NCBI GenBank assembly: GCA_017435865.1
Contig: JAFSEF010000058.1
Location: 1 to 51,214, forward strand
DNA: 51,214 nt
DNA from: Clostridia bacterium
Lineage (GTDB): Bacteria > Bacillota > Clostridia > Oscillospirales > Acutalibacteraceae
Direction: 5' to 3'
The notes beneath the pieces are model-generated. The model had not been told where the DNA came from and did not search any database. It saw nothing but the letters and a program-made list of their open reading frames with translations. How positions within the stretch are numbered: position 1 is the stretch's first letter; every line of letters starts with the position of its first letter. A program made the translations under genes and the position numbers. Below, piece after piece: positions 10,469 to 51,214 of the stretch.

Positions 10469-10502
10469 GGTAAATGACGCGAAAAATTTCGCCTTTCGTT
10501 AA

Positions 10503-16802: not shown

Positions 16803-16840
16803 ATAGCCTCTCCGTTTTTTATTTGGAGAGGCTATTGTTT
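16803..16840. terminator. Bidirectional terminator between convergent genes
   Basis: An 11-pair perfect stem ATAGCCTCTCC/GGAGAGGCTAT with an 11-base T-rich loop, followed by TGTTTT. It serves the Lgt-like gene (+) and the GT-C-like gene (-). Confidence 0.85.
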
Positions 16841-18675: not shown

Positions 18676-18707
18676 GTATGCTTCTCCCATAAAAACAATC
18701 TGTTTAT

Positions 18708-19018: not shown

Positions 19019-19047
19019 TTGAAAACTTGACGATGATGGTGTATAAT
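19019..19047 (+). promoter_or_regulatory. Promoter of the giant protein gene
   Basis: TTGAAA (19019-19024), 17-base spacer, TATAAT (19042-19047). Transcription would start near 19054, giving a leader of about 96 bases to the preferred ATG. The in-frame start at 19027 lies inside this promoter and is therefore excluded. Confidence 0.72.
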
Positions 19048-19149
19048 GTCTATCGTATGATAGTATCTAAAGGTGTAATTATGTCCAATATCCGACATTT
19101 TGCACCTGCAGATCATCTTCAATTTCAAGTCAGAAAAGGAGAAATGACT

Positions 19150-21838
19150 ATGAAACGAGTTCTCAGAAACACTCTTTGCGTGTTCCTGGCAATCATCATG
19201 GCTTTCAGCAGCTTCCAGATGAGTGCCGGTAATATTGCAGAGAAACTCGGCCTGCGCATCAGTGCGGAAGCAGCAGCTGCTGTTGATTCCGATGAACTGA
19301 AAAACGTATGGTTGAATGGTAAACATCTGGTAAGTGGTAACCAGACTGTAAATGAATTCTTGGCAAGTCTTACCGCCACATCTAATAAGCTTGAAGTTGC
19401 TGAACTTTCCGGGCTTTCCGGTCGTGACATGTGGACGGCATATTACATTCTCAATTATATTGCCGAGGATTACTATTTTTTGAATGGAACTAACAAAACG
19501 GGTTCTTCTTCGTTCACTACGGATTCAGCTGCCGAAAATCTTGTCAACGTTCTTGGTGCAGATTATCGGACGGCTATTTTGAATCTTGTCTCTCCGGCAG
19601 GTACGGATGCTGTTGAGTATCTCGGCAGAAAAAAGGTTACAATCCAACGTACAGGGCAGGCTCCGGGCCAAGCAAATACAATAGATATGTCGACAACTTA
19701 TGCAACGAATGCGGCTGATGCGGATGCATATAACAATGTTCAAACTTTCTCTAAAGAAATTAGATTGAACACAACTGTTGCGAATTTCATCAGTTCGTAT
19801 GAAGATTATAAGGACTTGAACACATATCCTATTTGGACATCTGTGACGGCAACATTGGTGAATGCGCAGAAGTCCTCCGATTCTGGGGTATCATATACCG
19901 AGACGCAAGCTAGCAAAGCTTCTAGCTGCGAAAGTCCTGGTGATTTGCCGGCATTGGGTACTTACACGCGCACAATGGAACGTTGGCACGAACTGCAGCA
20001 TTTTGAAATTGGTGCCAATCGCCCGAGTACTACAGTTACTGATACGGATGGAACACAACTTGGCATTAATGAGGCCATTCTGTCATACGGTGACTTTGTT
20101 ACCGGTGGTGCTTTCAATACGCATTGGAGCGCATGGGCTGCAAGTGATGACGACAGCTACATTTATGATATGGACGCCACAGATCGCGATAATTTGATTG
20201 CAGCTTATGAAACGAAGCACAATAATTATAAGACTGTTGTCGGCGCTGGTGTTCCTGTCAATGTCCTCGGAACGATCTTTACTGCTTACAATTCCACCAT
20301 TGGTGGCGATGGTAAGGACCCCGCAGGCAACACAACCGCTTATGCATCTTACAATGCTTTCTATGACAAGTTGGTTGCTGTTGCAAACGTTTCGCAGTAC
20401 AAGGACATGGCAGACTGGTTCATGGGTACTCTTGCAGTAGACGGTCTGTATGTTTATAATTATGACACTGACTACATCAACAGCTTTGCTACTGATTCCA
20501 ATGCCACAGTGAAAGCTGAATATGATGCCATTGAAAAAATCTACAACATCAGCACAGGTTATCTTGCTGCTTTCAATGAGCTTACAGAGACTGAAAAGAA
20601 GAACCTGATCAGTGTTCTGGAAGCAAGTTTCGGAATTAATTATAATTCCCAAGTTGCTGACCGTATGGCACAGTTGCAGCTTTATAAGGATTATTATGAA
20701 CTGTATGCTGCATACGAATATGTTAATTTCCGTATGAAAAACGGTACTTCTTCCGTTTATACGAAAGAAGATTACAAAAACGGTGACGGCACAACCATCG
20801 GCTTGCAGCAGTATTCAAGCTACGAGCATAAAGAGAATGCTGTCTCGGATGAAATTCTTGCCGATGCTCCCGCAGACATGCGTGCAAAACTTGCCGTCAT
20901 TAAGAATTACGAAGATTCTGCGGCATTTGCAGCATTGTTCGGCGATGGTTTCGATTTTGCCACGCTTGATAACTTTGTAAAAGCACTCGATCATGAACGT
21001 TCTTACCGTGGTATCGATTACAATTATAAGAATTCTGCGGCATTTGCCTGGTTCGAAGCAAACAAGAATGAAACCTGGCTTACCAAGGACCTCATTGTTC
21101 TTCTTTCCACTTACGGAACTGCTGCTTCCTATGCCAAAGATTGGAAAGAAAGCAAAACGGCTGCCGCCAACGGTACTTCAGGGTATGAAGCTCTGACTCC
21201 GACTGAAATTGATCAGATTTTCGGCGCAACCTACGAACAGGATCCCGTTGATGCAACCGTAAAAGAAATTGACGATGCTATCTATCAGGTTATCTTTAAC
21301 CAGCTGTTGCACTTGCTGGGTGTTGCCGGCTATGACGTAACGGTTGGCGGCGTGACGGTTACTCTCGGTGCTGATGTTGCCAACATGAACGGTGATGTTA
21401 AAGCCGACAAGATTCGCTCTGTTAACGCAAGAACTGCAAGGCTCCTTAATGAATTGCTGGATGACATTGATCACGCTCTGTATTATTGGTATACGGGTGC
21501 GGATGTCTATGTCCGCAGCAGCAACAATTATGTTTCCTTTGCTTCTTCCGGCTACACGGCATATCCTGTCAGTTCGCAGGCAAATCTGCTGACTGATACC
21601 CGCAAAAACAACCTGATAACCATGTATTCGCTGCTTGATGATTGCAAGGCGGCTTATGATGCCTATGGTAAAGACCTGGTTGCTACATTGAAGGGCAAAC
21701 TGGACTTTGACGACGGTAACGGTGACAACATCGGCGGCGATGGCTATTATACCATCCGTCATGCCCAGGCATATTCTGATATTGCCCGTGAAGGCTCTAA
21801 TTTCAGCTCCACGCTCCCGGCGGAAGAAGACGACTATG
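19150..21838 (+). other. Signal peptide and unique N-terminal region of the giant protein
   Basis: After the signal peptide (about residues 1-42) comes a non-repetitive, Ala/Asp/Asn/Tyr-rich, probably helical region up to about residue 896, with many KDYYELYAAYEYV-like stretches. It contains codons TTA, CTA and TCA (for example TCA in GVSY near 19890), unlike the 3' part of the gene. No known binding domain was recognised. Confidence 0.6.
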
Positions 21839-24800
21839 TTCTGTCTGTTCACCGCGTTGAGCACATGCTGGAAAAACTCGATGATTTCCTTACTTCTTCT
21901 GACTTTATCAATCTTATTGCTCCCGATTCCGGCGCTGCAAACCTGACTGCATGGTTGCAGAATCTGATCGGCGATCTGGTATTCTCCGATGAAATGATCA
22001 ACACCATTGTTGGTCTTCTGTTCCCGATGCTGACAGACCTTCTGGAAGGCCTGTTGAAAGAGGAGCTCAAAACAATTCCGTTGGATATTAAAGACGGCGC
22101 TCTTGAATTGCAAACCACGATTCATCTTTACCTTGACGGCGAAACGAAGAACGACAGGTATACTCCTGTTTCTTTGCCGGATGCTTTTAAACAGATTGGT
22201 CTTCCGCTGTATCCCTTGCATCTGGCTGAGACGCTGACATCAAAAAATGAAACAAAGTATTCTACACTCATCAAACTTTTGAATCAGTGCGGCAGATATT
22301 GGAACAGTTCTGTGATCGATTTGAATGGCGACGGTTCCGTTTCCTCCAAAGAACTCGGTTATCTTGGTGTTGAATGGGGTCTGGATGACATCACCAATCC
22401 CGAACAGCGCTTTAATGCTTTCCTTTCTGTTATCGGTGATATTTTCAGCGGTATTATTCCGCTGTTGCAATGCCTTTTCTGCAATTTAACATACACCAAG
22501 ACAGTTAATAATCTCGCATATGCGCATGCGCCAGAAGTTTACCTCAAATATAGTGTTACATTGTCTACCGATCAGCCATTGGCTCTCTTCCTTGAAGAAG
22601 GTACCCTTTCGATCAAGGGTTTGGACCTTTATAACAACCTTTGGCTGTCTCTGTTTGAAACCCTGTTCTTCAACGACTATATCTCTTCCCCCTATTATGT
22701 ATCCGATTTTAATGTAACGACGGAAAAACCGTTCTCTTCCTCCTTCGGTAACTCCGCTAATGGCACCGATTCCTATCAGTTTGCTAAATGTCTGTTCATG
22801 CCCGTGTATGCAACAATCGTTAAGGTTTCGCAGGCTCCGTTGAATACGGTTCTTAACCTGCTTCCCAACATCATGTTTATTCTGGCATCCGACTGGATTC
22901 AGCCGCACATCACCCGTCTGAAACTCTATTTGAGTGTTTATGATGTGGACGGTGCTATTGATACAAGCAATTCCGGTGCATTGGGTGACTTTGCTTCTAT
23001 TTTCCAGGGCATCATCTGGGGCTTTATCGAATTCAATGATATCGAAATCGACCTCGGCGGGATGCTTAACCTCGAAGAATTGATCGGCGCTCCATTGAAT
23101 GATCTTGATGGCATACTCAGGGCTTTCCTTGATCCGGAAATTGCAAGCCTTCTTCCCGAAATTAATGAACTTGAAATTGCAACGCTGGGTACTTTTGGAG
23201 AACATTACAGCCCTGCAAGAACATTTAATCCTCTCGGCGGCGATCCCGGCATGTATTATGCTGTTGATGCCGATATCGCAGACGTATTCTATTATCTGAT
23301 TCAGTTTGTACTTAACTTTGCCTCCGCAAACGGCGGCGCAAACCTGGAAAACCTTCTTGGGCTGGATCTTGGTTCCATCAAGGTTGATATGATCGGCCTT
23401 GACCTTAAGAAGTTGCTCACCACCCTGAATCCTGCTCAGGTTATTGCTGCATTGGTAGAACTTTTCTGCCCGAATACCACCAATAAGACCAACTCCAACG
23501 ATCGAGATCTGGCCGGCATCGGTGAGTATAAGGACGGCACTTCTCCCTATGCTCTGACCAATTGGGACTGGTTCTATCCCACCGAAAATTCTATCTTCTT
23601 CAAGACAGTACAGGATATTTCTGCTGCTGAATTTGTTTACCTTGACAATGAAAACAACTGGACTCTTGACAAGGCTGAATTCTTCTACAACAATGCAATC
23701 GGTCTCGTGGATGCCATCCTCGGCCTTGTGCTTACCGATGAAGATTCTCAGGCTTACAAAGATTTCCATGTTGTCGGCGGCGGTTCCTCTGCAAACTACC
23801 TGCGCAATATGATTGAACAGTTGTTCTCTTCTGACGGCGCATGGAATGTTGTGGAATTGATGGCTTATACCCTTGGTTCGGTCTTGGGCTCCCTGCCTGC
23901 ACCTGTTCTTAATATTTTCAAAGACAACTTCGGTATCAATGTTAACAGATGGTTCGAAACCTACGGTTATATGTTCTACGGTGAATACTTCGAAGAAGAC
24001 GGTTACTACCAGCCCTTCGATGTGGCAAACGGACTTACCGAAGGCACCACCCATCTGACCAAAGTTGCACATGACATCGTCCCGCAGTACGAATGTATCT
24101 TCTGCGTAGATAATGATGTTTTCAAAGAAAATGCCGATGGCACCGAAACTCTTGTGAAGGCCGGTATTCGTGACGAAAACGGCGAACTCCGTGGCAACAA
24201 TTATCCGCTTTCCGGCAATCTGCTTGAATACTATGATGTCGATTTTGACTATCAGGCAGACACTTCCAATTACAAGAATTTCAGATGCCATAACTGCGGC
24301 AATCAGCTTATCATCAGCTACGGCACCGATGAACTCACAAATGAGATCACCATCCCCGCAAACTCTGTCGGTGAAAAAGACTATACGATGACAGTAACTG
24401 ATGCAGAAGGCAATCCTATGCTGAATGCTGACGGCACGGAAGTTACCAAAGTAATCGGCCGTACCTACTACACTTATGACGGTACCTGGACAACAATTGA
24501 CAATGGTAACGAAGTCAAGTTCTACATTCCTGATAACAAATTCTATCAGGGTGCTAACGGCGACTATTATCTTCCTGATTCGCAGTGGGAAGACCAGTTC
24601 AAACGCGTTAAGATCATCCGTAAGGCTTTGCCTGCAGCACAGGCCGAAGCTGAAGAAATCGAACGTGCATACAACAGATTTGAATATGAGGTATGGTTTG
24701 ATTGGAATGGCGACGGCAACTTTGATCCTGATGCCATTATCAACACTTACGACCGCGAGATTTTCGTTGCGTACACCATGTACATGATGGAAGACCTTGC

Positions 24801-42800: not shown

Positions 42801-45800
42801 CGCAGACAACCTCAACAGCATCAAGACTGCTCTTGTTGATCTTCTTGCAAACCTTGAAGATTACATGGATCTTATCCTTGCTGTTGACGGCATCCTCGGT
42901 GTTGACCTCGGCGCTTATGCAACCATGGCTGAATTCAGCTACGAAGGCGACAACATCGATCTCTTCATCGATGGCCTCGTAACCCTGCTGACTCCCATCT
43001 CGGGCCTGCTTGGCTGGTTGCTGTTCGGCGACTCCTACGCATTCTTCCATTACAACGAAACCGATGCAGACGGTGACGGTGTTGCAGACGATCTGCTTGT
43101 ACTGCCCGGCTCCGAAGGTTATAAGTACGGTCTCGGCGTTCTCCTCGAAGCTCTTACCGGCAAAACGGCTCCGTCCGTTGACGGTATGAGCAATGTGGAA
43201 GCACTCGATGCAGTTCTTACCTATGTCGGTCAGTTCATCAACGAGGTATTCAATATGAAGCTTGGCGAAGCCATCGACTTCGTACTCAACCTTGTAAACG
43301 AACTGCTGTACTTCATCAATGCAAACGGTCTCTCCGTAATGCTCCTTAACCTTCTTGCTTCCGCTTACTCCCTGGTTGAAAAGCTGAACAGCGAAGGCAT
43401 CCTCGATCTCAACCTCAACGAACTGCTCGGCGGACTCCTGTTCACCGACGAAACCAAGGAAGCTCCTGACTTCCGCATCGAAAACACCAACCTGTTGGTT
43501 GTCTTCGAAATCGTTGAATACTTCACCGGCCTCGAATTTACCGAAGTTGTCGGTGCAGCCAAGATCGAAAACTTCTACATGGGTGTCATTGAAGCTTATG
43601 ATTCCGTTGCCGGCTATAAGGCATTCAGAATGACCTTCGGTGCCGAAGACGAAAACGGTAACCTTCCCACCTATGCAGATAACCTCATTGAAGACAAGGC
43701 TGACCTTGTAACCATCCTGCTCAGCTTTGTACTTGAAGTTCTCTTCTATGCAGATGAAACAACCAACAACGCAGCTGTTCTCAACAGCATGCTTGGTCTG
43801 GAAGGCATCTCGCTGGTTGACATCGTTGCTCTTGTCAAGGCTCTTGGTATCAATACGCCGAATTACCTGTATTACAACTGGAACTACATGCACGGCGAAG
43901 TTGAAACCGAAGTTGTCAACGGCAAGGAAGTAATCAAGTCCATCAACATTTCCGATCGCGAATTCAAGAACTACCTGACCTATCAGAATAACTGGGATGA
44001 AGCCACCGCAGAAACCCTCATGGCTAAGCTTCCCAACCTGCTTGTTCAGATTCTCGGCATGACCGGCACTGAAGTTGCTGCAGACGCAACGCTCAACGAC
44101 ATCATTGCCACCTTCAGCGGCAGCGGCTTGTCCCTGTTCACTGCTGATAACCTCAACATGATCAAGAATGCTCTTATCAATCTTCTTGCAGGTCTTGATG
44201 ATTACATGACCATCATTACCTCCGTTGACGGTATCCTCGGCCTTGACCTCGGCGCTTACACCGCAGAAAACATGCCCGATTATACCTTCTCCGGCTCCGA
44301 TGCTGATGCATTCGTAGCAGGTCTGGTTGATATCCTCGAACCCATTTCCGGTCTGCTTGAATGGCTCCTGTTCGGCGGAAGCTACGCATTCTTCCACGAC
44401 AGCGCAACCGGCGAAGAAGATCTCCTTGTTCTTCCCGGCTCCGAAGGCTACAAGTACGGTCTCGGCGTTCTTCTTGAAGCACTCGGCATTGTCGCTCCCG
44501 ATGTTGACGACATGGCCACCTTCGAAGAAAAGATGACCGCAATCCTCGGCGCAGTTGCAGATTTCGTTGAAGAAGTTCTTGCAATGAACATTGAACAGGC
44601 AATCGACTTCGTTCTGAACCTGCTCACCAACCTCATCTACTTCATCAACGCAAACGGTCTGTCCGTAGCAATTCTTAACCTGCTCGCATCTGTATACGAT
44701 CTTGTTAAGGAACTCAACGCTGACGGTGTTATCAATCTCAATCTCAACGAACTGCTCAGCGGTCTGCTGTTCACAGATGAAGAAAAGACTGCTCCTTACA
44801 TCAACATTGAAGAAATCGATCTTCTCATGGTATTCAATGTTGTTGAATACTTCCTCGATGTTGAAATCACATCCTGGATGTCCGTTGTTGATAAGGAAAC
44901 CGGCAAGATCGTTGACGGTTACAAGCTCGATAACTTCTACATGGGCAACATCACTGCTTATGATTCCGTAGCAGGCTACAAGGGCTTCAAGATGAGCCTC
45001 CTGAAGCCGGACGGCGAAGCAGGCGACTATGCAAAGACACTTGTAGAAGACCAGGCTGACCTTGTTACCATCATCCTCAGCTTCGCTCTTGAACTTCTGC
45101 TCTATCCGAAGAACGCTGAAGCAATCGATGCTCTCATCGGCAGCGAAGACTTCTCCATCGCAGGTATCGTTGATTTGGTAAGAGGTCTGGGCGATCTCAC
45201 CCACACCACCATCACGTTCAACTGGAACTACTTCAACGGTCCGGAAGGCACCATCGTTAAGGACGGTAAGGAATACATCACTTACACACCCGCTGATGAC
45301 AAGTCCTACCGCGAATTCAAGAACTACCTGACCTACGGCAACAGCTGGAGCGAAACCACTGCTGAACTGCTTGATACTTCCTTGATCAGCATCGTAGAAA
45401 TGGTTCTTGATATGACCGGTGTTGAAATCAACAAGATCGGCGACCTTCTCGGTGATGACTTCACCCTCTACAAGGCAGAATACATCAACACCATCAAGGA
45501 TGCACTCGTTGGCCTGCTGACCGACCTGTCCGACTACATGGATCTCATCTCCACTGTTGACGGTATCCTCGGCGTTGACCTCGCTGCTTATGATAAGATG
45601 ACCGAACCCTTCGAATTCGAAGACGGCGACAGCGCAGCATTCATTAACTACCTGTACGAAGTGCTGCAGCCTGTTGAAGGCCTGCTTGCATGGCTGCTGT
45701 TCGGCGAATCTTACGGATTCTTCTACTACAACCAGCTCAAGGAAGGCAAACCGGTCGAAATGATCGTTCTTGCCGGTGCAGACGGCTACACCAACGGTCT

Positions 45801-48800
45801 TGCACTCATCCTCGAAGCACTCGGTGTGAAGGCTGCTGATATCAGCGAGCTTGAAACCACCGAAGAAAAGTTCAAGGCAATCCTCACCTCTGTTGTTGTC
45901 TTCATCGATGAAATTCTCAACGGATCTCTTGAAGAAGTCATCGACAAGGCTCTTGCCCTGATCGTAAATCTCCTGTACTTCATCAATGCAAACGGTCTGT
46001 CTGCAGCACTCATCAACTTCCTTGCTGCTGCATACAACATCGTCAACCTGCTCAACTCCAGCGGTCTTGTCGATCTTGACCTCAACGAACTGCTCAGCGG
46101 TCTGTTTGAAGACAAGGACGGCGACGGTGAACCCGATGTCAAACTTGACATTGAAAACACCAACCTGCTGACTCTGGTTGAAGTTCTCGAATACTTCCTC
46201 GGTATGGAAATCACCGATATCTTCGAATATATTGATCCGAAGACCGGCGAAACCCAGAGCAAGATCAGAAACTTCTACATGGGCCATGTTGAACAGTATG
46301 ACTCTGTTGGTGATGCTCCTGCATTCAAGATGCTTCTCGGCAAGGCAGACGGCAAAGCCGGTGACTATGCACAGACTCTTGTTGAAGACAGAGCAGACTT
46401 CATCACCATCCTTCTCAGCTTCCTGCTTGAAGTTGTTCTGTACGATACCAACGCACTGGCACTCGATAACCTGCTTGGTACCGACGGCATGGTCGCCATG
46501 ATCGTAGCCCTCGTTGAATCCCTCGGCAACTTCGATATCGAATATGTCGACTTCAACTGGAACTACATGCATGACACCAGCGAAAATAAGGATGCAGGTT
46601 ATGTGGATAACAGCGAGCCGAAGGACGGCATCTATGATGAAATCCTTCTGCCCGACCGCTACATCAACTACTTCAACACTTATACCCAGAACATGTGGAC
46701 TGAGCAGAAAGCACAGTTCCTTGCAAGCAACATCGATTCCATCGTTGCTGACATTATGAAGCTCGTCAACGGCGAAGATGCAGGCGATGTTGATCTCATC
46801 GGTATGCTCCTCGGTGAAGACTTCACCATCTATAAGGCTGAATACCTTGAATCCATCACCACTGCAATCCCCGGCCTGCTTGAAAGCCTTGATAAGAGCC
46901 TTGTAGACATCATCGGCATGGTGCTCGGCGTAGACCTTACCGGCTATGCAAACATGCACTTCGTCGGCATGTCCAAGGATGAAGCAAACGAAAAGTACGA
47001 CGATTCCGATGAATTCGGTCTTTACTACACGGAAGGCGATGCGAAGTACTACATCATCCGTGATGAATTTGCAGAAGCAGACTTCATCAACGGCTTGTGC
47101 GCAATCGTCAAACCGATCGAAAACGTTCTCAGCTGGCTGTTGTTCGGCGGAAGCTATTCCTTCTTCCATCACAACAACACAGATGAAAACGGCGACGGCG
47201 TTGCAGATGACCTTCTGGTTATCGCAGGTGCCGACGGTTACTCCAACGGTCTTGCACTTCTTCTTGAAGCACTCGGCGTCAAGGCTCCGCGTGTCGCTTA
47301 CGACAACAAGGGCAACATTGATGCAACCGCAACGCTCCATGCACTTCTTACTGCTCTGGCAGCAAGAATCAGCGAACTGTTGGCTGACCCGATCGACAAT
47401 ATCGTTGCTCTGCTTCCGAACCTTCTGTACTTCATCAACTCCAACGGTCTGTCCGTTGCAATTCTGAACACCCTTGCATCTGTTTACAACGCACTTGCAG
47501 TGGTTCAGGAAAATGGTCCCGCACTCGGTATCGATGAAGAAACCCTTGCAACTCTCGACCTCAACAAGCTCATCGGCAGCCTGCTTGATGATACCGGACT
47601 TGAGATCGACCTTGAAAATACTGACCTTGTTGCAGTATTCAATATCGTTGAAGCTCTCACCGGTCTTGAAATCACTGATGTTGTCGGCTACCTGAAGATC
47701 GACAGATTCTACCTTGGTCAGATTAAGGCTTACGACACCGTAAGCGACTTCGAAGCATTCAGAATGAGCTACTCTGCAGACGAAGATGCCGGCGATATGC
47801 TCACCATCCTGCTCAGCTTCCTGATTGAAGTTCTGCTGTATGGCGACAACGCTAAGGTGCTCGATGACATGGTCGGTACCGACGGCATGATCACAGCAAT
47901 CGTCAACTACCTTGTATCCGATGCAGTCATCACCTATTCGATGATCAACTGGAACTACATGGAAGGCACGGTTGTAACCGAAGAAAACATTGATGAACTC
48001 AATGCCGGCCTTGCCGAAGACGACAAGTTTGAACTTGGCGATATCAAGCTGCCTGCAGACCGCTTCATCCACTACCTCGAATACGGCAACAACTGGACCG
48101 AAGAAACCTCTGAATACATCTTCGAAAACATCGATGCAATCGTTGAAATGGTATTCGGCATCATCAATTCCGATGCGGAAGATCAGCAGACTCTCAGCGA
48201 TCTGATTCTCGGCTTCTTCAACCCGGACGAAGATCTGTACACAGCAGCAATGCTGGATGACCTCGCAGTCATGCTTGCAGACCTCATCGGCCAGCTTGGT
48301 GAATCTCTTGTCGATCTCATCGGCATCCTGCTCGGTGTTGACCTGTCTTCCTTCTCGAAGATGCGTTACGCTGATTACGATGCAAGCGCAAGCTATCAGA
48401 CCGACAGAGCTCACGACCTGTATTACACCGAAGCAAACGGTGTCAAGACCTATGCAATTGCAGACAGAACCGACTTTGTTGATGCTATCTGCATGATGCT
48501 CGAACCCACCTACGAAATCCTTGACTGGCTCCTGTTCGGCGGCGAAATCGCATTCTTCGTCGACAGCAAGGATGCTGATAAGGGTCAGGATGACCTCATC
48601 AGCCTTGTCGGTGCAGAAGGCTTCATGGCAGGCCTTGTACCGGTACTCGAAATCCTCTTCGTTGACATGGGCACTGTAAGCTCCGACGTAAACGGCGAGT
48701 TCAACACCGCTGTTGTTCTGCCGCAGCTGCTCACCGCACTGATGAACAGAATCGACGAAATCATTGCAGACCCGATCGACGAAGTACTCAACATCATCCC

Positions 48801-50943
48801 GAACCTGCTGTACAACATCAACGCCGGCACCATCTCCGCACTGCTCAAGAACCTGCTTGGTTCTGTCTACGGCTTGCTTGGTGCAATCGGTCAGGATCTC
48901 TCTGTTGACGGTCTGATCGCCGATCTGATTGGTATCGAAAACGAATACTTCAGCATCGAAAACTTCAGCCTGCAGGATGTCTTCTATCTGATTGAACACT
49001 TCACCGGCCTTAACATCAGTGCAGCAGTCTATGACGAGTCACATCCTGTTGAAATCGATGACTTCTATCTTGGTATCATCGAAAAGTACACTTCCGCTAA
49101 CACCTCCACCGCCTACAGAATGGTATTCCCGGCAACCAGCACCGACTACGAAGTCGGCGGTGCAGTGCCTGAAGACCGTGCAGACCTGCTTGCAATCATC
49201 GTTGGTCTCCTTGTTGACGTAATCAACTTCGAAGGCAACCGTGAAGCAATCAATGAACTGATCGGCGAAGGTGCTTGGGAAGCAATCTATGCAGTCCTTC
49301 ATCTTGAAGAGTTCGAAATGCAGCAGTTCGATTGGCTGTATTGGGAATATGCCGATACGGGACTTATCTTCGCTCCTGCTAAGAACTCGCTCCTGTTCGA
49401 AACTGCATACGGTAAGTACTTCACAAAGGAAATGGCAAACGACATCGTAACCCACTTCGATGAATTTGTTGACACATGGATCCGCTTGTTGGGTATTGAA
49501 AGCCTGATCGACGGCATGACCTTCGACAGCCTTGAAGAACTCCTCAACGAACTGCTCAACGAATATCTGTACACTGCAGACATCGGCAACTCCATCCTCG
49601 ATGCACTTGTCGGCCTGCTTGACAGCATCAAAGATATCGATCCCGACGGTTACATCCTCGGCCTCGTCAAAGAACTTCTTGGTGTAGACCTTACTCAGCT
49701 TGGAAACATCAGAATTGTTTCCACTGCAGAAGAAGCTGCTCAGTATAACGGCTCCAGCTACACGGTTTACACCGTAGAAAAGGGCGACACCGAAAGCTTC
49801 ATCAATGCTCTTTCCGGCATTCTTGAACCTCTCACTCCGTTGCTTGCATGGTTGCTGTGCAACGAACCGCTGTCCTTCTTCTATGACCACGAAGGTTACG
49901 ATGCAATCACCCTTCTTGGTGGTGAAGGTTATGCCTACGCTCTGATCCCGCTGCTCGAAGCTCTCGGTTGCCCGGCTGACAGTATCCTGACTCCCGAAGA
50001 GTACTACGCAGCAGCTGAAGCTGATCCCGCAAACATGATCGGCAATATCCTCAGACCGATCGCTGCAAGACTTTCTGACTTCGCAGCAGATCCGGCTATG
50101 GAACTGCTTGAACTCCTGCCCGCATTGATCTACTTCATCAACTCCAACGGTGTTGATACTGTAGTCAAGAACCTGCTGCACGGTGTATTCGGTGTTCTGG
50201 ATGCACTCCAGCCGTTGCTTGGTGATGTCAATGCTTATGAACTTGTCGGTATCCCGGATCTCGGAACACTCGACTTCGCAGGCATTCTTGAACTTGCTCT
50301 CAGCAGTGTTGAAGAAGACCTCGGCATGAGCATCGCAAGACCTGCATACAATGCAATTCTTGAGTTCACGCATGGTGAAATCGTTTCCTTCCAGTCTAAG
50401 AACGGTCAGATCGCTTATACTATGAAGTATAACGACGAATCCGCAGACAGAGGCGACATGATCACCGTCCTTCTCCGCTTCGTTCTCACCTTCGCAACGC
50501 TTGGCGACAACATCACTGCCATCAAGCTGATGCTGAAGGATTCCGTAAATGAAGACGCATTCAAGTTCATCTGTGCTCTCCTTGACAACCTTAAGGATAT
50601 GGGATCCACTGCAGACGGTATTGATAAGATGCTGTATACCATCTACTACATCTTCTACGCTCTGTACCATGCAGGTAAGGAAACCCTGAACTGGCTGGAT
50701 GACACCAATGACAACTTCCTGTTCCTGTGCGATCTGTTCAAGAACAGTAAGGACGATACCCTCAGCGGTCTTTGGAACGACCTCAACGGCTTCGTCGAAA
50801 AGAATGAAATTGAAGATATCGTTAACCCCGATCCGATGGATCCGAATCCCGGTATCGCCGGTAATGGTCAGATCTCCTTCTGGCAGAAGATCATTGAATT
50901 CTTCCAGAAGATCGCCGACTGGTTCAAGAACCTGTTCAGCTAA
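19150..50943 (+). CDS. Giant secreted repeat protein, about 10,597 residues
   Basis: One uninterrupted frame of 31.8 kb; I do not recognise the family. A basic MKRVLRN and hydrophobic core (LCVFLAIIMAFSSF) form a signal peptide, probably cleaved near SAEA. Residues to about 900 are unique. Two diverged units follow, then from residue 2307 sixteen recognisable tandem units of 428-794 residues sharing ordered blocks: WNYM, FKNYLTY, LFTADNLNSIK, a WLLFG hydrophobic helix, EGYKYGL, YFINANG, FTGLEIT, FYMGxI and ITILLSFLLE. DxDxDG calcium-type loops recur. The end is a Pro/Asp linker and an aromatic amphipathic tail, with no LPXTG or late transmembrane anchor. AAAAGGAG is eight bases before ATG 19150; a second start at 19081 with AAAGGTG is possible. 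The protein is Leu/Asp/Glu-rich, poor in Cys, and strongly codon-optimised in its 3' two thirds. Promoter and terminator are its own. A structural or adhesive surface role is inference. Confidence 0.93.
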   Translation: MKRVLRNTLCVFLAIIMAFSSFQMSAGNIAEKLGLRISAEAAAAVDSDELKNVWLNGKHLVSGNQTVNEFLASLTATSNKLEVAELSGLSGRDMWTAYYILNYIAEDYYFLNGTNKTGSSSFTTDSAAENLVNVLGADYRTAILNLVSPAGTDAVEYLGRKKVTIQRTGQAPGQANTIDMSTTYATNAADADAYNNVQTFSKEIRLNTTVANFISSYEDYKDLNTYPIWTSVTATLVNAQKSSDSGVSYTETQASKASSCESPGDLPALGTYTRTMERWHELQHFEIGANRPSTTVTDTDGTQLGINEAILSYGDFVTGGAFNTHWSAWAASDDDSYIYDMDATDRDNLIAAYETKHNNYKTVVGAGVPVNVLGTIFTAYNSTIGGDGKDPAGNTTAYASYNAFYDKLVAVANVSQYKDMADWFMGTLAVDGLYVYNYDTDYINSFATDSNATVKAEYDAIEKIYNISTGYLAAFNELTETEKKNLISVLEASFGINYNSQVADRMAQLQLYKDYYELYAAYEYVNFRMKNGTSSVYTKEDYKNGDGTTIGLQQYSSYEHKENAVSDEILADAPADMRAKLAVIKNYEDSAAFAALFGDGFDFATLDNFVKALDHERSYRGIDYNYKNSAAFAWFEANKNETWLTKDLIVLLSTYGTAASYAKDWKESKTAAANGTSGYEALTPTEIDQIFGATYEQDPVDATVKEIDDAIYQVIFNQLLHLLGVAGYDVTVGGVTVTLGADVANMNGDVKADKIRSVNARTARLLNELLDDIDHALYYWYTGADVYVRSSNNYVSFASSGYTAYPVSSQANLLTDTRKNNLITMYSLLDDCKAAYDAYGKDLVATLKGKLDFDDGNGDNIGGDGYYTIRHAQAYSDIAREGSNFSSTLPAEEDDYVLSVHRVEHMLEKLDDFLTSSDFINLIAPDSGAANLTAWLQNLIGDLVFSDEMINTIVGLLFPMLTDLLEGLLKEELKTIPLDIKDGALELQTTIHLYLDGETKNDRYTPVSLPDAFKQIGLPLYPLHLAETLTSKNETKYSTLIKLLNQCGRYWNSSVIDLNGDGSVSSKELGYLGVEWGLDDITNPEQRFNAFLSVIGDIFSGIIPLLQCLFCNLTYTKTVNNLAYAHAPEVYLKYSVTLSTDQPLALFLEEGTLSIKGLDLYNNLWLSLFETLFFNDYISSPYYVSDFNVTTEKPFSSSFGNSANGTDSYQFAKCLFMPVYATIVKVSQAPLNTVLNLLPNIMFILASDWIQPHITRLKLYLSVYDVDGAIDTSNSGALGDFASIFQGIIWGFIEFNDIEIDLGGMLNLEELIGAPLNDLDGILRAFLDPEIASLLPEINELEIATLGTFGEHYSPARTFNPLGGDPGMYYAVDADIADVFYYLIQFVLNFASANGGANLENLLGLDLGSIKVDMIGLDLKKLLTTLNPAQVIAALVELFCPNTTNKTNSNDRDLAGIGEYKDGTSPYALTNWDWFYPTENSIFFKTVQDISAAEFVYLDNENNWTLDKAEFFYNNAIGLVDAILGLVLTDEDSQAYKDFHVVGGGSSANYLRNMIEQLFSSDGAWNVVELMAYTLGSVLGSLPAPVLNIFKDNFGINVNRWFETYGYMFYGEYFEEDGYYQPFDVANGLTEGTTHLTKVAHDIVPQYECIFCVDNDVFKENADGTETLVKAGIRDENGELRGNNYPLSGNLLEYYDVDFDYQADTSNYKNFRCHNCGNQLIISYGTDELTNEITIPANSVGEKDYTMTVTDAEGNPMLNADGTEVTKVIGRTYYTYDGTWTTIDNGNEVKFYIPDNKFYQGANGDYYLPDSQWEDQFKRVKIIRKALPAAQAEAEEIERAYNRFEYEVWFDWNGDGNFDPDAIINTYDREIFVAYTMYMMEDLAPLFNLLLLGEDAVLFDGAFTLVGFNAYDSVLLPLWELLEICSDEMTELTGQTAALSADGYLEYIRSNSNASDPTYDEETGYSNAGAVAGITYLTEQLFTWIDWVLTNDEGGKNMVQKIFDLLPNLFYGLQSNLLSNAIFNLIHFAIVLVDIIRPIFDLDLNALLRNLLFDLLVEYNDDLNENLTDPDCGCEVIAVPTLEDAPDQETEPEAYDKWLAEDYEQYVAALEVYEAYKAQHSYGGAHYKANKDKNPTTPAAVAILDVENLTLQAILQIVQNLFGFKFSPIHYALEGIALTAERDADKDGEMEYYGIESYVSLSNYSWTDIDNNGKKDDAVTDATGTVLRSTDSMPVATRLNYYGPDSVTLLVSILLDLLHIDANRTALDRLLFSDGSLGDGFTSEGLFSALDTLFTEVEFDYSREPNWDYLAEDFVADWNGDGEDEKWEGTAAQMQWLYADTTDLSMYHSIYYLSYVTDWTYETADGIYDSFDAILNMVAGLIEIDGKTYENLPDLLNGLLNDMLFTDEMAGTIVDLLGTVLNLLPPVVFQLVDTIFDTNIADDIVSDTKSPDDQLGDDILETREKDENGNPVYGWYKYFDHIVTAIDDAGVRTYEFVVGSEYATEETVIEKQPVVDDATGEAVLDGEDNPVMKDVEVKVVTYDFGIDDFDDPAEKQEAFFQFITDLLQPAAYLLGWIFIGADYRFFFTMGEGIKYQQIQGDGGKTYYDIVFDKGGDLDGDGDDPNDFGDDSIILNGGMGYQYGLVPIFEAFGLECLPAQNFYTFDEQGNVADIKVHDFLAHFVDILQQLINAILYPTVDDMFYMAEGDTTVNTIDWLIDKLPNLIYFINCNGLSVAVNNILANFANFLNILNSVLEESIDINALIASVGLDMNNINLGSIFKILESVLGIHVNDSMLHFLETLYIGEIKPYQSANQRPAYRMACTDKEDQADVITILISLLLDVLMDQGSYAQDTYKVQVSHDDGTYDEENGIMIPPADGWEDVTTTETYSGAEWKLSQNDGIYTLTKPQYNEDGSVKKDDAGNVINDTLVIDSADYLNLNLTDEVVTYHVISYDNAGVTEKVSFDASEWKYEVADGVYTLTKTTTDADGNETTETVTYKATDYEDLDYESVEVTYYHFTSVNTKIGVFNQDKDGTTVTEDAPWPTGDWYRYVYESTEIINYNNLSAIDRLIGVEEGKPGLVENIIALLDTKFTDYKNVDWYYFDKNVELLPGNVTNEGDIIYTDDKNGDKVGVRDINYLTYGNDWTYETAAYLAYGIEELVSTILSMTGAEETDIAALLGGMLDIYNGATLESIRSLVADLMESLDEVIFNLVDALLGVSISEWNDYRFASLEDVAIVTEKIGEDGNPVLDKNGNPVTEITGYYPAFTYTYNTYIENGYVLDENGNTYMNDNGTPDDMSDDYPIFQFKATKHVVEITEEELFARDDAGNFTRLVWDDAAKLYYFTVDYHHDDVTDEIEGTVTNGEVETNAKFYLVRPDDETTTNIAEDRDDFVNGLSKLVGSISRVIGWLLFGQEYEFFVGQDNYYYDEYTTTDGGATWSATGNTLAGDTVVTATIDGTTKTDMAYRLYGKEYTDGNTKYVVNADVLLRINGGLGYSTGLVLLLEALGCENLHSVEYYTDKETGDINVKQAITDLLNSVFVRLDEILADPINVALDEVLPNLIYFINSNGLGTAINNIAGFALNILDAIAESGILEEPIDVSSLILGLFEDILVDKNYKFDIAQLKLKDIFALAEAITGMKINEVVGSKLDYFYLGHIEQYISAGGEYNENGEFENYLAYKMVLDTQDGKPLYDAEGNLLPSEDRAALITIIISFLLDVMEYQVDGQYVNANALDSLLNLEPGALAGIVKIVKGEYVNAQKAPIDWFYFDKTVDLNNLPTTDEGATDIALTYRADHTINYLNYPNWWNERFVDTLDSNLNNIVDAVLAMTASEGEEPQTLDDLLGGLLNGLLTAETAQSLFDTLSGLLGNLDKAITDLLDALLEIDLSVWDGIAFADMVTDAEGVTAWTTTYDTYTDTTTDKDGNTIFDEATKTTVELAVKNTDVQIATDENGLDYFFYTVPFSVLNEDGKIVENTTEYKYYVVNNYSTRDFANALSVVLSPAFPLLDWLLFGSSFEFFHPSADDNGTLSLINLKGGHGYKFGLVPIFEALGVPATSLPDVTRDGVQYKSEDLFADIIAAVLDYVLWLLKTDADGTTPIDKVLGVLLNLIYFINANGLAASVQNLVGGLLNILDAVNGTGLIEDDISLEGLLGSLLEDTLPEGFSLFDDKGNIVLDLMAIFTLVEGFVDLEITDVFKNADGTLAPEKLDNFFVGKMKAFTSSNGDLAFKMVYGADYAQSKGDFLTIIINMLLEVVAYTDPANGIDNAAALDTMLETEGLVSGIVKLLTTTLDIEYSDINWNYMGGTVEETEINGEKVVSNISLASLNRYVTYLSYSNDWSEGLAETLGYELNTIISAVMSLINGEEDVNLVDMLLGKGFTLYKEEYLESISVMLTELLFEVEPIWVNLVGSLVQAELEAQKVDKYTLLKFNTEKNDWEETDEYVLDLGQDLGFEPNQSFVEGEGEEAVTYKYRKDAKQVTVSKLGQYTEFKEDDPATTDVNEAKVSFVNALCEILAPLNPILSWLFFGEDIAFFTDNATGEKDLIKLPGANGYSEGFVLLFEALGCHVPGKDGLNTAETYYNAETKKYDSIAALRDILLAVADRIDELLADPINGIIDLIPELLYFINANGLSVVINNALASVLALLEEVNKLDLGFSLDVKQIVNDLVNDLLGEDVDTFNIDDVNIGVVISIVEGWIGLDLHTFLNDDDRDGFAEVTDRMDGIEILSKFYIGDIVRYESGSGKPAFKMVFEAKTDYITTRTEDRGDMLTILLSYLLEAATYKYNYTDENGKTATFSNAAVLDEMLGTDGMVSMIVDLLISLGIIDISYLTVDWAYAGVKVTDDTIDAINANLKPGEEPYEVGEIKLNDRFINYLSYKNDWNKDIATTLNNELPALVDTIIGMVSDYDSLGEMLSGSFTLYTAEYLEAIIGLIEQLYDLVNAQLIELIDLMLDLDLSRLNGIHFIDEADLYVDGKAVYNGTEVTVQEGTKMNMDCFDYTLVEESYEIHKLNAETNEFEATGEFVVGTYTQAANGAEFVDETDETVKYVYKENVNTTYTVYIVDADNAETPDVNEAKNDFITGISYILGALKSLFAFLFFGDDISFFNKFGYVDGKPVDTIRLAGADGYSKGLALLLEALGCTDPNVEVKTETTGMMKKDIYLMEDGTYNVDYFINDLATSLLNRVDEILANPVEEVFNLLPELLYFINANGLSVAVINLLGAVYGVLEYVDKAGIVDMSLDINALVGGLIGIEGINIEQLDLTAVFQIVEQFVDLEITNVLNAKDEEGLDYNKLEQFYVGRIYAYDSASCDAEKGETAYKMAYTTTEGKGDMITILVSFLLEVAIYNGYQDVYTLESFDGTNWVAVTEEVDGVEEPVTITGYWTKVLDSETVYINGASAATATEGALRYVWTEEVPVNNVAVLEDMLKTDGMVQKIVNLLTQKGVVIDYLPINWNYMGAEMDENGNIDLDTVPKFEMNYLLYENDWQYATPAALMGGLDKIISTVLTLTGAEFSSVSELIANSFTIYNASLLETIAEALQGLLSSLDAILVDLIDMILGTDISRFNGLGFIDYAKVFKNGNYEFAGETVSIIDNYDDSGLSAFNVSLAVYAVNAYDEATGTWVRTDDTILHDEYIEYFGDDKNDKYTELFTTVDRTYLIIGEGEAAKTDFVYGLSYILKSIASVFAWLLFDDEIAFFHKNGTDSDGDGVTDDILFINGADGYSKGLVLLLEALGCKMKPKSEYAVKDENGAVVSYDCEAFIDDLALALFNRVDAILADPINQVIALLPNLIYFINAEGLSVALINMLQAVYHLLDDINDLGVDLDINELIAGLFTEEGKEAPDIDIEHIDLLMVFEVVEYFTGLEITEIFEVTDEDGNVSSKIDRFYIGEIVKNTESAYDGASYYMQFATKTTDENGKVSQYAEDAADMLTILLSFLLEIVLYKNGDVNNAAALDNLLGLEDFSIGTVVELLRDAGLTISGYLNFEWNYMNGTETTDADGNLIGITLPTTAFKNYLTYNNNWDEDTAESLILGLPEILADVLHIIDSDVTIDAANATINDVLKALDVELTLDFFTYDNLMMIKEAIAGLLGSISDYMEIITAVDDILRLDLGAYANMTFTEYENSDPAKFADGLWTIIAPIEGILDWLLFGDSYAFFFQNQDIDGNGTIDDLIELAGANGYEEGLVYLLEMLLGEYVFDENGNNRLAVVRENGVVNTEKTMKAVITTALDFVNGLLDMKLADGIDFIFNLITELLYFINANGVSVALLNTLAVAYNLVGLLNKSGLFELDLNALLTGLLGYPIDIENTDLRYLIGLVENFTGFAIADIFNYEEDGVIKNKLDSFYMGEIVSYTTASGETAFRMQFADGATEYGAGVAEDKADFITILVSFLLETILYEGSQEIYTVYEKDGDNWTATDKTAVGYYKQAVHGNEIIVGDYMFKYTKTVTVSNAAVLNDLIGSEDLDLSKIVALLNKFGMKLDVRDYIQFDWNYMGGEETRDEDGNLVNISLPTTAFKNYLTYKNNWSEDVAEGLDAALIDIVIMVLNNEKITKTTTVNQLIATLTESNFSLYTAENLNMIKNALINLLEGLDDYMGLVTKVDGILGLDLSKYNLEEMPDYTFTGASETSFINGLVDILAPLEGLLSFLLFGGSYAFFHDNATGEEDLLKLTGAEGYKYGLGVLLEVLGIAAPNVDGIEDFRGKMRAILTALAGFINTILNKPLASDPQTGTVGAVDYILGLIPNLIYFINANGLSVAVLNLLAAAYKLVNALNESGLLTLNLNELLADLLFKDENKTAPYIDIEKIDLVMIFEIVEYFVDFKIIDVVTKNKLDKFYIGQLTKYDSVAGWDAYRMSFADTYTDYGVGAVEDRADFITILLSFALEVLMYGDNPKVLDEMIGSEDISIAGIVNMLTTLGVPGYLGYSWNYMGGTAILDENSKLIDIELPTTAFKNYLTYENDWNEDTAEALFVGLADILVDVFALLGKEGITKETTVEQLIVSLTGSGLEIFTAANLNSIKTMLTDLLGSLDAYIVQLISSVDDLLGLDIAAYQTMPDFEYTGNDIDLFVDGLVTLLAPLSGLLGWLLFGDNYAFFHHSNTDENKDGVADNLIELPGAEGYKYGLGVLLEAITGKTAPTVDGLADNTAKLDAVLSYVGAFVKDVMAMNLEDAIDFIFNLIAELLYFINANGLSVAVLNLLAGAYSLVDTLNKKGYVDLDLNALLGDVLFTDENKTAPDFAIEKIDLLMVFEIVEYFTGLEFTNIVGNKKLQKFYIGDITAYDSVAGYTAFRMALAEGETTYGAGVAEDKADLITIILSFVIEALLYDVNAAAIDNMINSDDFSVETIVALIAKLGIPVDYRYYKWNYMGGKQVTMDGYIYSIELPTEGFKNYLTYANNWTEEAAEGLMAELPGLLVSLLGGEDFDGTIASLLGDFELFTAENLNSIRTALVDLLGNLDDYMKLISKVDGILNVDLSLYDEIEPFVFNENESASAQFVDGLVELLVPISGLLDFILFGDDYEFFYYNKTYYEGRPELRDLITIAGAEGYKYGLAVLLEALGVDAPNVDGLATTAEKLDAILSAVAKFVDDVLNMQLADAINFALDLVANLLYFINANGISVAVINLLGCAYNAVEDLNDSKLLELNLNELLAGLLFTDENKKAPEFDIEKIDLLMIINVVEYFTGLKITDWMSEYKLKNFYMGEINSYDSVAGYKGFRMTLATPDGIADYKKTHVEDQADLVTIILSFALELLLYPGNAAVLDEMLGLDGISIDGIVKLVKKLGVNINYQTYSWDYMVGDKIGDYADGESIYEDDLLVDIKLPTEGFKNYLTYENNWDEDTAEALMQNLPTLLVDILALTGTEGITADSTVNDLIVLLVGGGLDIFTADNLNSIKTALVDLLANLEDYMDLILAVDGILGVDLGAYATMAEFSYEGDNIDLFIDGLVTLLTPISGLLGWLLFGDSYAFFHYNETDADGDGVADDLLVLPGSEGYKYGLGVLLEALTGKTAPSVDGMSNVEALDAVLTYVGQFINEVFNMKLGEAIDFVLNLVNELLYFINANGLSVMLLNLLASAYSLVEKLNSEGILDLNLNELLGGLLFTDETKEAPDFRIENTNLLVVFEIVEYFTGLEFTEVVGAAKIENFYMGVIEAYDSVAGYKAFRMTFGAEDENGNLPTYADNLIEDKADLVTILLSFVLEVLFYADETTNNAAVLNSMLGLEGISLVDIVALVKALGINTPNYLYYNWNYMHGEVETEVVNGKEVIKSINISDREFKNYLTYQNNWDEATAETLMAKLPNLLVQILGMTGTEVAADATLNDIIATFSGSGLSLFTADNLNMIKNALINLLAGLDDYMTIITSVDGILGLDLGAYTAENMPDYTFSGSDADAFVAGLVDILEPISGLLEWLLFGGSYAFFHDSATGEEDLLVLPGSEGYKYGLGVLLEALGIVAPDVDDMATFEEKMTAILGAVADFVEEVLAMNIEQAIDFVLNLLTNLIYFINANGLSVAILNLLASVYDLVKELNADGVINLNLNELLSGLLFTDEEKTAPYINIEEIDLLMVFNVVEYFLDVEITSWMSVVDKETGKIVDGYKLDNFYMGNITAYDSVAGYKGFKMSLLKPDGEAGDYAKTLVEDQADLVTIILSFALELLLYPKNAEAIDALIGSEDFSIAGIVDLVRGLGDLTHTTITFNWNYFNGPEGTIVKDGKEYITYTPADDKSYREFKNYLTYGNSWSETTAELLDTSLISIVEMVLDMTGVEINKIGDLLGDDFTLYKAEYINTIKDALVGLLTDLSDYMDLISTVDGILGVDLAAYDKMTEPFEFEDGDSAAFINYLYEVLQPVEGLLAWLLFGESYGFFYYNQLKEGKPVEMIVLAGADGYTNGLALILEALGVKAADISELETTEEKFKAILTSVVVFIDEILNGSLEEVIDKALALIVNLLYFINANGLSAALINFLAAAYNIVNLLNSSGLVDLDLNELLSGLFEDKDGDGEPDVKLDIENTNLLTLVEVLEYFLGMEITDIFEYIDPKTGETQSKIRNFYMGHVEQYDSVGDAPAFKMLLGKADGKAGDYAQTLVEDRADFITILLSFLLEVVLYDTNALALDNLLGTDGMVAMIVALVESLGNFDIEYVDFNWNYMHDTSENKDAGYVDNSEPKDGIYDEILLPDRYINYFNTYTQNMWTEQKAQFLASNIDSIVADIMKLVNGEDAGDVDLIGMLLGEDFTIYKAEYLESITTAIPGLLESLDKSLVDIIGMVLGVDLTGYANMHFVGMSKDEANEKYDDSDEFGLYYTEGDAKYYIIRDEFAEADFINGLCAIVKPIENVLSWLLFGGSYSFFHHNNTDENGDGVADDLLVIAGADGYSNGLALLLEALGVKAPRVAYDNKGNIDATATLHALLTALAARISELLADPIDNIVALLPNLLYFINSNGLSVAILNTLASVYNALAVVQENGPALGIDEETLATLDLNKLIGSLLDDTGLEIDLENTDLVAVFNIVEALTGLEITDVVGYLKIDRFYLGQIKAYDTVSDFEAFRMSYSADEDAGDMLTILLSFLIEVLLYGDNAKVLDDMVGTDGMITAIVNYLVSDAVITYSMINWNYMEGTVVTEENIDELNAGLAEDDKFELGDIKLPADRFIHYLEYGNNWTEETSEYIFENIDAIVEMVFGIINSDAEDQQTLSDLILGFFNPDEDLYTAAMLDDLAVMLADLIGQLGESLVDLIGILLGVDLSSFSKMRYADYDASASYQTDRAHDLYYTEANGVKTYAIADRTDFVDAICMMLEPTYEILDWLLFGGEIAFFVDSKDADKGQDDLISLVGAEGFMAGLVPVLEILFVDMGTVSSDVNGEFNTAVVLPQLLTALMNRIDEIIADPIDEVLNIIPNLLYNINAGTISALLKNLLGSVYGLLGAIGQDLSVDGLIADLIGIENEYFSIENFSLQDVFYLIEHFTGLNISAAVYDESHPVEIDDFYLGIIEKYTSANTSTAYRMVFPATSTDYEVGGAVPEDRADLLAIIVGLLVDVINFEGNREAINELIGEGAWEAIYAVLHLEEFEMQQFDWLYWEYADTGLIFAPAKNSLLFETAYGKYFTKEMANDIVTHFDEFVDTWIRLLGIESLIDGMTFDSLEELLNELLNEYLYTADIGNSILDALVGLLDSIKDIDPDGYILGLVKELLGVDLTQLGNIRIVSTAEEAAQYNGSSYTVYTVEKGDTESFINALSGILEPLTPLLAWLLCNEPLSFFYDHEGYDAITLLGGEGYAYALIPLLEALGCPADSILTPEEYYAAAEADPANMIGNILRPIAARLSDFAADPAMELLELLPALIYFINSNGVDTVVKNLLHGVFGVLDALQPLLGDVNAYELVGIPDLGTLDFAGILELALSSVEEDLGMSIARPAYNAILEFTHGEIVSFQSKNGQIAYTMKYNDESADRGDMITVLLRFVLTFATLGDNITAIKLMLKDSVNEDAFKFICALLDNLKDMGSTADGIDKMLYTIYYIFYALYHAGKETLNWLDDTNDNFLFLCDLFKNSKDDTLSGLWNDLNGFVEKNEIEDIVNPDPMDPNPGIAGNGQISFWQKIIEFFQKIADWFKNLFS
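21839..26067 (+). repeat. Diverged repeat units of the giant protein
   Basis: Recognisable but degraded block order: LVFSDEMINTIVGLL (near 21975), LPNIMFILASDW (near 22860), NWDWFYPTEN (near 23563), FNLLLLGEDAVLF (near 24808), LPNLFYGLQSNLLSNAIFNLI (near 25165) and VTLLVSILLDLLH (near 25890) correspond to blocks of the clear units downstream. A dockerin/EF-hand-like DLNGDGSVSSKEL begins at residue 1057 and two CxxC pairs lie at residues 1649/1652 and 1713/1716. Confidence 0.55.
26068..50691 (+). repeat. Sixteen tandem repeat units inside the giant gene
   Basis: Taking the Trp of the W-N/D/Y-Y-M motif as unit start, units begin at 26068, 28450, 30448, 32050, 33652, 35512, 37111, 38620, 39925, 41236, 42520, 43879, 45223, 46558, 47950 and 49333. 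All intervals are multiples of three. Lengths fall from 794 and 666 residues in the first two to 428-464 in the last eight. In the unit at 41236 the blocks lie at about: FKNYLTY 41308, LFTAENLNSI 41452, hydrophobic FILFG helix 41629-41712, EGYKYGL 41780, YFINANG 41974, LLFTDENK 42100, NFYMG 42235, TIILSFALE 42367. The matching Tyr of YF/YNIN lies at 27325, 29842, 31483, 33025, 34765, 36526, 37918, 39388, 40696, 41974, 43309, 44638, 45976, 47428, 48811 and 50131. Confidence 0.88.
27715..28215 (+). repeat. Internal 75-residue duplication in a variable loop of unit 1
   Basis: Within the first clear unit, two consecutive strand-rich segments share EWKLSQNDGIYTLTK and EWKYEVADGVYTLTK. Their Trp codons lie 225 bases apart (27832 and 28057), so this is a tandem duplication of 75 residues inserted after the ITILISLLLDV helix. 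Confidence 0.7.
50824..50943 (+). other. C-terminal Pro/Asp linker and aromatic amphipathic tail of the giant protein
   Basis: NPDPMDPNPG (residues 10559-10568) is followed by a Gly-rich stretch and a final helix-like segment with Trp, Phe and Lys at regular spacing (SFWQKIIEFF, ADWFKNLFS). There is no sortase motif. A similar aromatic tail occurs, from memory, on other large surface proteins of gut Clostridia, so it may be a sorting or membrane-association signal; this is inference. Confidence 0.55.
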
Positions 50944-50983
50944 ATCGTTTACGAAAAGTGAACAAGCAAACTAAATAGCGCAG

Positions 50984-51017
50984 CCGCCCCGATTCCGAAA
51001 GGAACCGGGGCGGTTTT
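50984..51017 (+). terminator. Terminator of the giant gene
   Basis: A 13-position stem CCGCCCCGATTCC with GGAACCGGGGCGG (one mismatch), loop GAAA, then TTTT, 41 bases after the stop codon. Confidence 0.88.
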
Positions 51018-51214
51018 GCATGTTGTATAAAAAAGGGGGAAGCGTGTGATGTAAATTGCGGTTTGTCGGGGAGTTTGATTTGCAGGAATTTTGGTTGATT
51101 GTCAATTATTAAAAGTTTTGGTCAAGTTTTTTCAAAAACTTGCGGGGTCAAGGGGCAGCGCCCTTGCCGCTCGTCGCAACGAGCGGAATTCCTTATGCGT
51201 CAGAAAGCGCAGGA
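51018..51214. repeat. Gene-free right edge with a three-hairpin dispersed repeat
   Basis: No gene is seen up to the window end. From about 51111 the sequence forms three consecutive hairpins: CAAGTTTTT/AAAAACTTG (51123-51142), CAAGGG/CCCTTG (51149-51166) and the perfect CCGCTCGT/ACGAGCGG with loop CGCA (51167-51186). The AAAAGTTTTGGTCAAG...GCGGGGTCAAGGGGC layout is one I know as a common intergenic repeat in genomes of gut Clostridia. It is AT-rich and featureless between 51018 and 51110. Confidence 0.6.

Follow-up and report, generated by a model that had tools for sequence, protein, structure and literature searches.

The window analysed here, a stretch of 51,214 nucleotides, is contig C38 of an assembly of 3.1 Mb in 133 contigs that is 84.8% complete. 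Positions 19027–50943 of its forward strand form one uninterrupted open frame, for which the ATG at 19150 is the likely start. The encoded protein, referred to below as the giant protein, has 10,597 residues and a mass of 1.17 MDa; its gene contains no internal stop and no N. The protein is acidic, with 1741 D+E against 560 K+R, a net charge of −1181 and a pI of 4.05. The features of the locus are as follows.

19019..19047, + strand: promoter-like site TTGAAA-17-TATAAT, 11 of 12 consensus positions matched (a consensus match only)
19135..19141, + strand: ribosome binding site AAAGGAG, ending 8 nt upstream of ATG 19150, the usual spacing
19150..50943, + strand: giant gene, 10,597 codons plus stop
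19150..19284, + strand: signal peptide region read by eye (MKR..., hydrophobic core, AEAAA)
19282..21759, + strand: N-terminal region, residues 45–870, the most diverged part, matched only in two orthologues
21871..23364, + strand: strongly diverged repeat, residues 908–1405 (E 1.7e-11, wider profile)
24691..26088, + strand: diverged repeat, residues 1848–2313 (E 2.2e-31, wider profile)
26191..27696, + strand: repeat, residues 2348–2849 (E 1.8e-81, wider profile)
28549..49383, + strand: 14 full tandem repeats, residues 3134–10078 (both profiles)
36259..47211, + strand: five calcium-loop motifs (residues 5704, 6163, 7100, 7972 and 9345), lying in the loop flanked by the AFF and LIxLxGA motifs
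49405..50598, + strand: last repeat, residues 10086–10483, a separate lineage of C-cap type (tree and wider profile)
50854..50940, + strand: C-terminal amphipathic tail IAGNGQISFWQKIIEFFQKIADWFKNLFS (tail search of the own genome, hydrophobic moment)
50978..51019, + strand: terminator-like hairpin with a TTTT run (−31 kcal/mol, z −5.56)

The unbroken frame, the ribosome binding site, the promoter match and the hairpin agree with an earlier note, made from the letters of this DNA, which described a single intact gene with signal peptide, promoter, ribosome binding site and terminator. Promoter-like sites number 5 in the stretch against 2.8 in shuffles. A simple terminator scan does not list the hairpin and gives a different site at 51167, we think because the T-run of the hairpin is short. 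The signal peptide reaches a KD peak of 1.84 at residue 4. The same note spoke of very hydrophobic helices, which holds in part: the giant protein has 37 KD-19 peaks above 1.6, counting the signal peptide, but its overall hydropathy is ordinary (GRAVY 0.06) and its highest peak, at 2.0, is not extreme.

Two other frames in the window deserve mention. An antisense frame of 5,784 residues (31645–48999, − strand) was considered as a gene and rejected, as it goes with the codon bias of the sense strand, in which TTA (1), CTA (0) and TCA (10) are nearly absent across the whole giant gene. Divergent from the giant gene lies a 616-residue multi-membrane protein (16840–18690, − strand) that resembles a GT-C glycosyltransferase by eye and gave no Pfam match; its copies beside the orthologues on contig C21 and in assembly G014, both described below, are 63% identical, below the other neighbours compared.

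A first profile, built from 14 units, delimits 14 full repeats of 435–662 residues each between residues 3134 and 10078, with pairwise identities of 29–62%, and finds further matches at residues 10087–10479 (E 8.5e-55), 2349–2847 (E 6.8e-60) and 1496–2067 (E 2.6e-20). A wider profile of 91 units finds 16 strong repeats, with weaker matches at residues 908–1405 (E 1.7e-11), 1495–1612, 1848–2313 and 3058–3109, in line with the earlier description of sixteen tandem units plus diverged ones. Residues from about 871 to 1609 align to the paralogues C51 and C103, and residues 45–870 match, besides themselves, only C21 and G014c33 in a set of 23 sequences, several of them truncated at contig edges. 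The motifs LLYFINANGLSVAVxNLLA and WLLFGxSYAFF recur through the repeats. Helix-like periodicity is dominant in the 91 units and strand-like stretches are few, which supports the helical units proposed earlier, although the propensity and hydrophobic-moment analysis is crude and the evidence weak. Calcium-loop motifs occur 11 times in the whole protein against a mean of 0.55 and a maximum of 3 in 200 shuffles, and these loops are candidates for calcium binding. A duplication within the repeat was rejected, since pairwise hhalign comparison of four segments gave a top probability of 2%. If some 17 globular modules of more than 400 residues measure 4–6 nm each, the array would be about 70–100 nm long; the earlier figure of hundreds of nanometres is thus unsupported.

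None of the libraries searched places the repeat in a known family, as the earlier note had supposed when it recognised no named domain. Pfam gives nothing over cut-off for the whole giant protein, and for the 91 units it gives 24 families at E up to 0.1, each on at most 2 members; weak single matches such as DUF2992 and EF-hand_5 lie under the cut-offs and were rejected. NCBIfam gives nothing over cut-off for residues 1–5000, 5001–8000 and 8001–10597, so that neither library holds a strong match to a characterised family. Searches against PDB sequence profiles reach best E values of 1 (A1), 0.043 (A3, an alignment of two repeats at window positions 41287–43974 with 103 relatives) and 0.069 (A4), each over a short stretch of about 70–85 residues, and a known fold by sequence profile was rejected. 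Phage origin was likewise rejected: PHROGs gives 0 families for two stretches of the window and for P0003, a two-repeat relative, and viral contigs hold 0 relatives among 89 pattern matches. No paper on the repeat family was found in the open-access library searched.

The gene was compared with its counterparts in the assemblies G021 (JAFQCH01, goat caecum) and G014 (SVOJ01). The giant protein is identical in G021, and the DNA is 100% identical over 34,881 bp and 99.99% over 16,334 bp; identity this high may mean that the two assemblies come from the same samples, and G021 is therefore not a fully independent check. More weight falls on G014 (C33), whose co-linear orthologue is a frame of 10,516 codons that is 76.8% identical. 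Over 10,374 codon pairs this comparison gives dN 0.141, dS 0.525 and a dN/dS of about 0.27, a ratio that indicates purifying selection on the giant gene. Along the gene, going from 5′ to 3′, dS declines from 1.8 to 0.13, and dN/dS ranges from 0.18 to 0.40; this N-to-C divergence gradient, which is mostly one of dS, may reflect recombination, for example in the 3′ part, rather than an exposed tip.

The own assembly holds a second copy of the locus, in which C21:1-38000 and C36 (L091, L092, L097) correspond to window positions 3846–50943. The giant gene is 62–72% identical in this copy and 11 neighbours are 63–99.7% identical with their order kept; C21 and C36 share a 505-bp overlap that is 95.6% identical. 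Two copies of the locus in one bin indicate that the bin is probably a mix of two related species. In a tree of 173 rows all 16 window repeats group with the position-matched repeats of G014, and 14 of the 16 also group with those of C21/C36, where repeats 3 and 5 of C36 could belong to either of two positions. This position-matched grouping indicates that the order of the array has been kept, and identities of 29–62% between units point to old duplications, not an assembly loop. An assembly artefact, a frameshifted pseudogene or a chance frame might be suspected from the probably mixed bin with its two locus copies and from an identical G021 copy that may share samples with the window. Nevertheless, with a co-linear G014 orthologue, unit identities of 62% at most, a dN/dS of about 0.27 and 56 matches in the own genome of which none has an internal stop, such an origin is scarcely credible. 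The assembly loop specifically was rejected given the old repeats and the co-linear orthologue; neither the unit divergence nor the G021 and G014 copies show a sign of one, and no stops break the array.

The repeat module defines a gene family whose members carry from 2 to about 17 repeats and which, by sequence matches in the genome samples searched, is confined to one bacterial family. Seven contigs of the own genome have matches, in frames of 10,643, 6,139, 4,516, 3,323, 3,171, 1,666 and 918 codons, the second and third of which are one locus split over two contigs. Beside the 1,666-residue relative, a frame at L096:3-2264 (− strand) ends in a C-terminus that looks Dockerin-like by eye (DFNGDGKVKADDARRILR). 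Among 59 genomes of relatives, 30 carry the repeats, including all 26 of the genus (own genome counted). A sample of the bacterial family has repeats in 31 of 200 genomes and 19 of 135 genera, a sample of the order in 9 of 395 genomes, all within the same bacterial family, and a sample of the phylum in 1 of 398, the own genome. Completeness of 90% or more was required in the order and phylum samples, to which the own genome was added. Since all three are samples from larger groups, in which at most 4 candidates per genome (order, phylum) or at most 9 (family) were scored, absence there is no proof. Public genome contigs add 35 loci, many of them from ruminant gut, with titles naming Clostridia, Clostridiales, Eubacteriales, Oscillospiraceae, Ruminococcaceae or Ruminococcus. 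Other open frames longer than 7,000 codons occur in G004, G007, G024, G028 (9,406) and G221.

The last repeats of the proteins compared form one clade with full support that takes in 22 of 23 labelled rows, the exception being C21, whose end is a contig edge. A separate last-repeat type hints that adjacent repeats pack together, which is the case in other repeat proteins that have caps. Of the first repeats, 12 of 23 rows form a clade on long branches, with a tool warning on the meeting of such branches, and the window's own first repeat falls outside it; an N-cap type is only suggested by these sequences.

The giant protein does not have a sortase-type LPXTG-like C-terminus and ends instead in an amphipathic helix. 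A search of the own genome with this tail gives 15 matches at E up to 10, of which 13 end no more than 11 residues short of their frame's C-terminus and 2 are not C-terminal; past the best five or so the matches are individually weak (E 0.005 to 0.6 at C-termini). Four of the 13 C-terminal matches are on members of the repeat family. The other nine carriers are L134, L136–L141, L143 and L144, eight of which were scanned: three have no Pfam domain, and the five with domains carry CHAP, calcineurin-like phosphoesterase (Metallophos), BspA LRR (LRR_5), Big_2 and CotH. The hydrophobic moment of the window tail is 0.66, a value equalled by none of 2000 shuffles. For 17 hand-picked tails the moment is reached by 0 to 3.6% of shuffles; 13 of these are from the own genome (12 of the 13 C-terminal matches, L139 being left out, plus the own protein C114) and four from elsewhere. 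Short relatives read by eye show other end signals: lipobox-like starts in L204 and L197; NPGTG/NPATG, a hydrophobic stretch and a basic end in L195 and L202; and transmembrane ends in several of L146–L157. Together, the tail and these lipobox-like, NPxTG-like and transmembrane signals place the repeat module outside the membrane. Judging from its sequence, the window protein is probably held at the cell by its C-terminal amphipathic helix, although the tail could instead serve protein docking. In these uncultured gut Clostridia the recurring tail may act more generally to retain proteins at the surface.

The shortest relative in the own genome, P0003, has 918 residues with a signal peptide, two repeats and a C-terminal transmembrane segment, read by eye. 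Its gene lies directly upstream of one for a 924-residue protein with ABC_tran (E 1.2e-33) and FtsX (E 7.5e-18) Pfam domains (L095:4977-10505), a neighbour that pertains to this relative and not to the window gene. The pairing recurs at 11 of 13 loci, namely the own one and 10 of 12 fetched (L146–L154 and L156), with ABC proteins of about 920 residues; L155 has no ABC match, and L157 is cut by a contig end, the ABC gene of its genome following a partner fragment on a different contig. The best NCBIfam model for the ABC protein is MacB (E 6.7e-85), at 285.6 bits against an equivalog cut-off of 966, and the FtsE and LolD models also match the ATPase part. The partner gives no Pfam match over cut-off and thus has no MacA/HlyD domain. 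When a tight ABC orthologue is taken as one scoring above 1000 bits, a line drawn after the scores were seen, 12 of the 200 family genomes have one, and repeats are present in 12 of these 12 against 31 of 200 overall (p 2e-11, kinship ignored). The seven ABC matches that score next come from genomes without the repeat family, and 19 of the 31 repeat-bearing genomes lack a tight ABC. Twelve ABC homologues from repeat-less genomes show, by eye, no upstream partner of the two-repeat type. The own genome and G014 each have the giant gene and the ABC pair on separate contigs. The ABC operon, the distinct last repeat, the calcium loops, the short relatives and the common tail all go beyond what a reading of the single window gives.

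We assign a probability of about one half to the reading that the giant protein forms a cell-surface array, mostly helical and tethered at its C-terminus. The protein would be exported by way of its signal peptide, and its amphipathic helix would then sit in the outer face of the cytoplasmic membrane, as the C-terminal helix of E. coli PBP5 does, keeping the last repeat beside the membrane. Some 16–18 mainly helical repeats, several with calcium loops, would extend away from the membrane and end in an exposed tip formed by the variable N-terminal region. The most likely job of such an array would be contact with another cell, plant fibre, mucus or a hydrophobic compound; alternatively, it might be a surface scaffold that holds a binding tip clear of the wall.

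The ABC operon allows the same family to be read differently. The repeats might bind hydrophobic ligands, in which case the giant protein would store, soak up or pass on lipids or other greasy compounds at the cell surface, and the MacB/FtsX-like ABC protein, together with the two-repeat relative, would load or unload it. The position of that transmembrane relative directly before ABC_tran and FtsX domains in the own genome and 10 of 12 homologues, the presence of repeats in every genome with a tight ABC, and the 37 hydrophobic peaks are in its favour, but an ordinary GRAVY, the 19 repeat-bearing genomes without a tight ABC and the separate contigs of giant gene and ABC pair in the own genome and G014 leave it rather doubtful; the hydrophobic-groove carrier proposed in the earlier note is likewise not supported. 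A stronger form is a long shot: here the repeats would be a new class of hydrophobic-molecule-binding module, made either two at a time, as the partner of a MacB/FtsX-like ABC protein, or strung into 1-MDa surface chains, and would relay or store lipids outside the cell, retained there by an amphipathic tail in use across the exported proteins of the genome. The ABC operon, with MacB as the best model and FtsE and LolD on the ATPase part, also fits a role in envelope mechanics, and the tail is carried by a CHAP protein as well: in the manner of the extracellular proteins that partner FtsX-type ABC proteins, the family would control wall hydrolases or the integrity of the wall, and the giants would be wall-spanning tethers. 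However, no hydrolase domain is found in the window protein, the 91 units, P0003, P0004, L196 or L204, and a repeat number that varies from 2 to about 17 does not fit easily with a fixed wall-spanning role, making this account quite improbable.

As a tethered surface array the giant protein can be set beside several known systems. Ebh of Staphylococcus aureus, described as a wall-associated protein of 1.1 megadaltons, is similar in mass to the 1.17 MDa found here; both have a repeat array and, as proposed here, a surface location, and the megadalton size and signal peptide typical of Ebh are also present, the latter by eye. The repeats of Ebh are FIVAR/GA-type helical modules of about 126 residues. 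The modules here are several times longer, and neither the whole protein nor the 91 units give a Pfam match to FIVAR or GA repeats. Giant1–5 of Apilactobacillus kunkeei are reported to be giant extracellular proteins of 3,000–8,000 residues that occur several to a genome and have a history of recombination (PMC12863079), and the present family, as read here, resembles them in all three respects. An N-terminal beta-solenoid is predicted there for Giant1–4 (PMC12863079), whereas the giant protein has no Pfam match over cut-off. A survey of huge proteins of more than 5,000 residues covers the same size class, and the words Clostridia, Oscillospir-, Ruminococc- and Bacillota are absent from its main text (PMC11573180). 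The C-terminal amphipathic helix of E. coli PBP5 (DacA) is a proven membrane tether (PMC2909392), and the present tail is like it in being a short helix, predicted to be amphipathic, at the end of an exported protein; unlike the PBP5 anchor, it recurs in a single genome at the ends of numerous unrelated proteins. The neighbour of the two-repeat relative resembles MacB/FtsX-type ABC proteins in its ABC_tran and FtsX permease domains, but differs from MacB in its score (285.6 of 966 bits), its length (924 residues against 648 in the model) and a partner without a MacA/HlyD domain. Giant bacterial surface proteins are already known; what is new is a large module outside every library searched, and a gene family whose members have 2 to about 17 repeats and varied end signals, with a conserved ABC neighbour among the short ones. 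These short members bring the module within reach of ordinary expression and structural studies.
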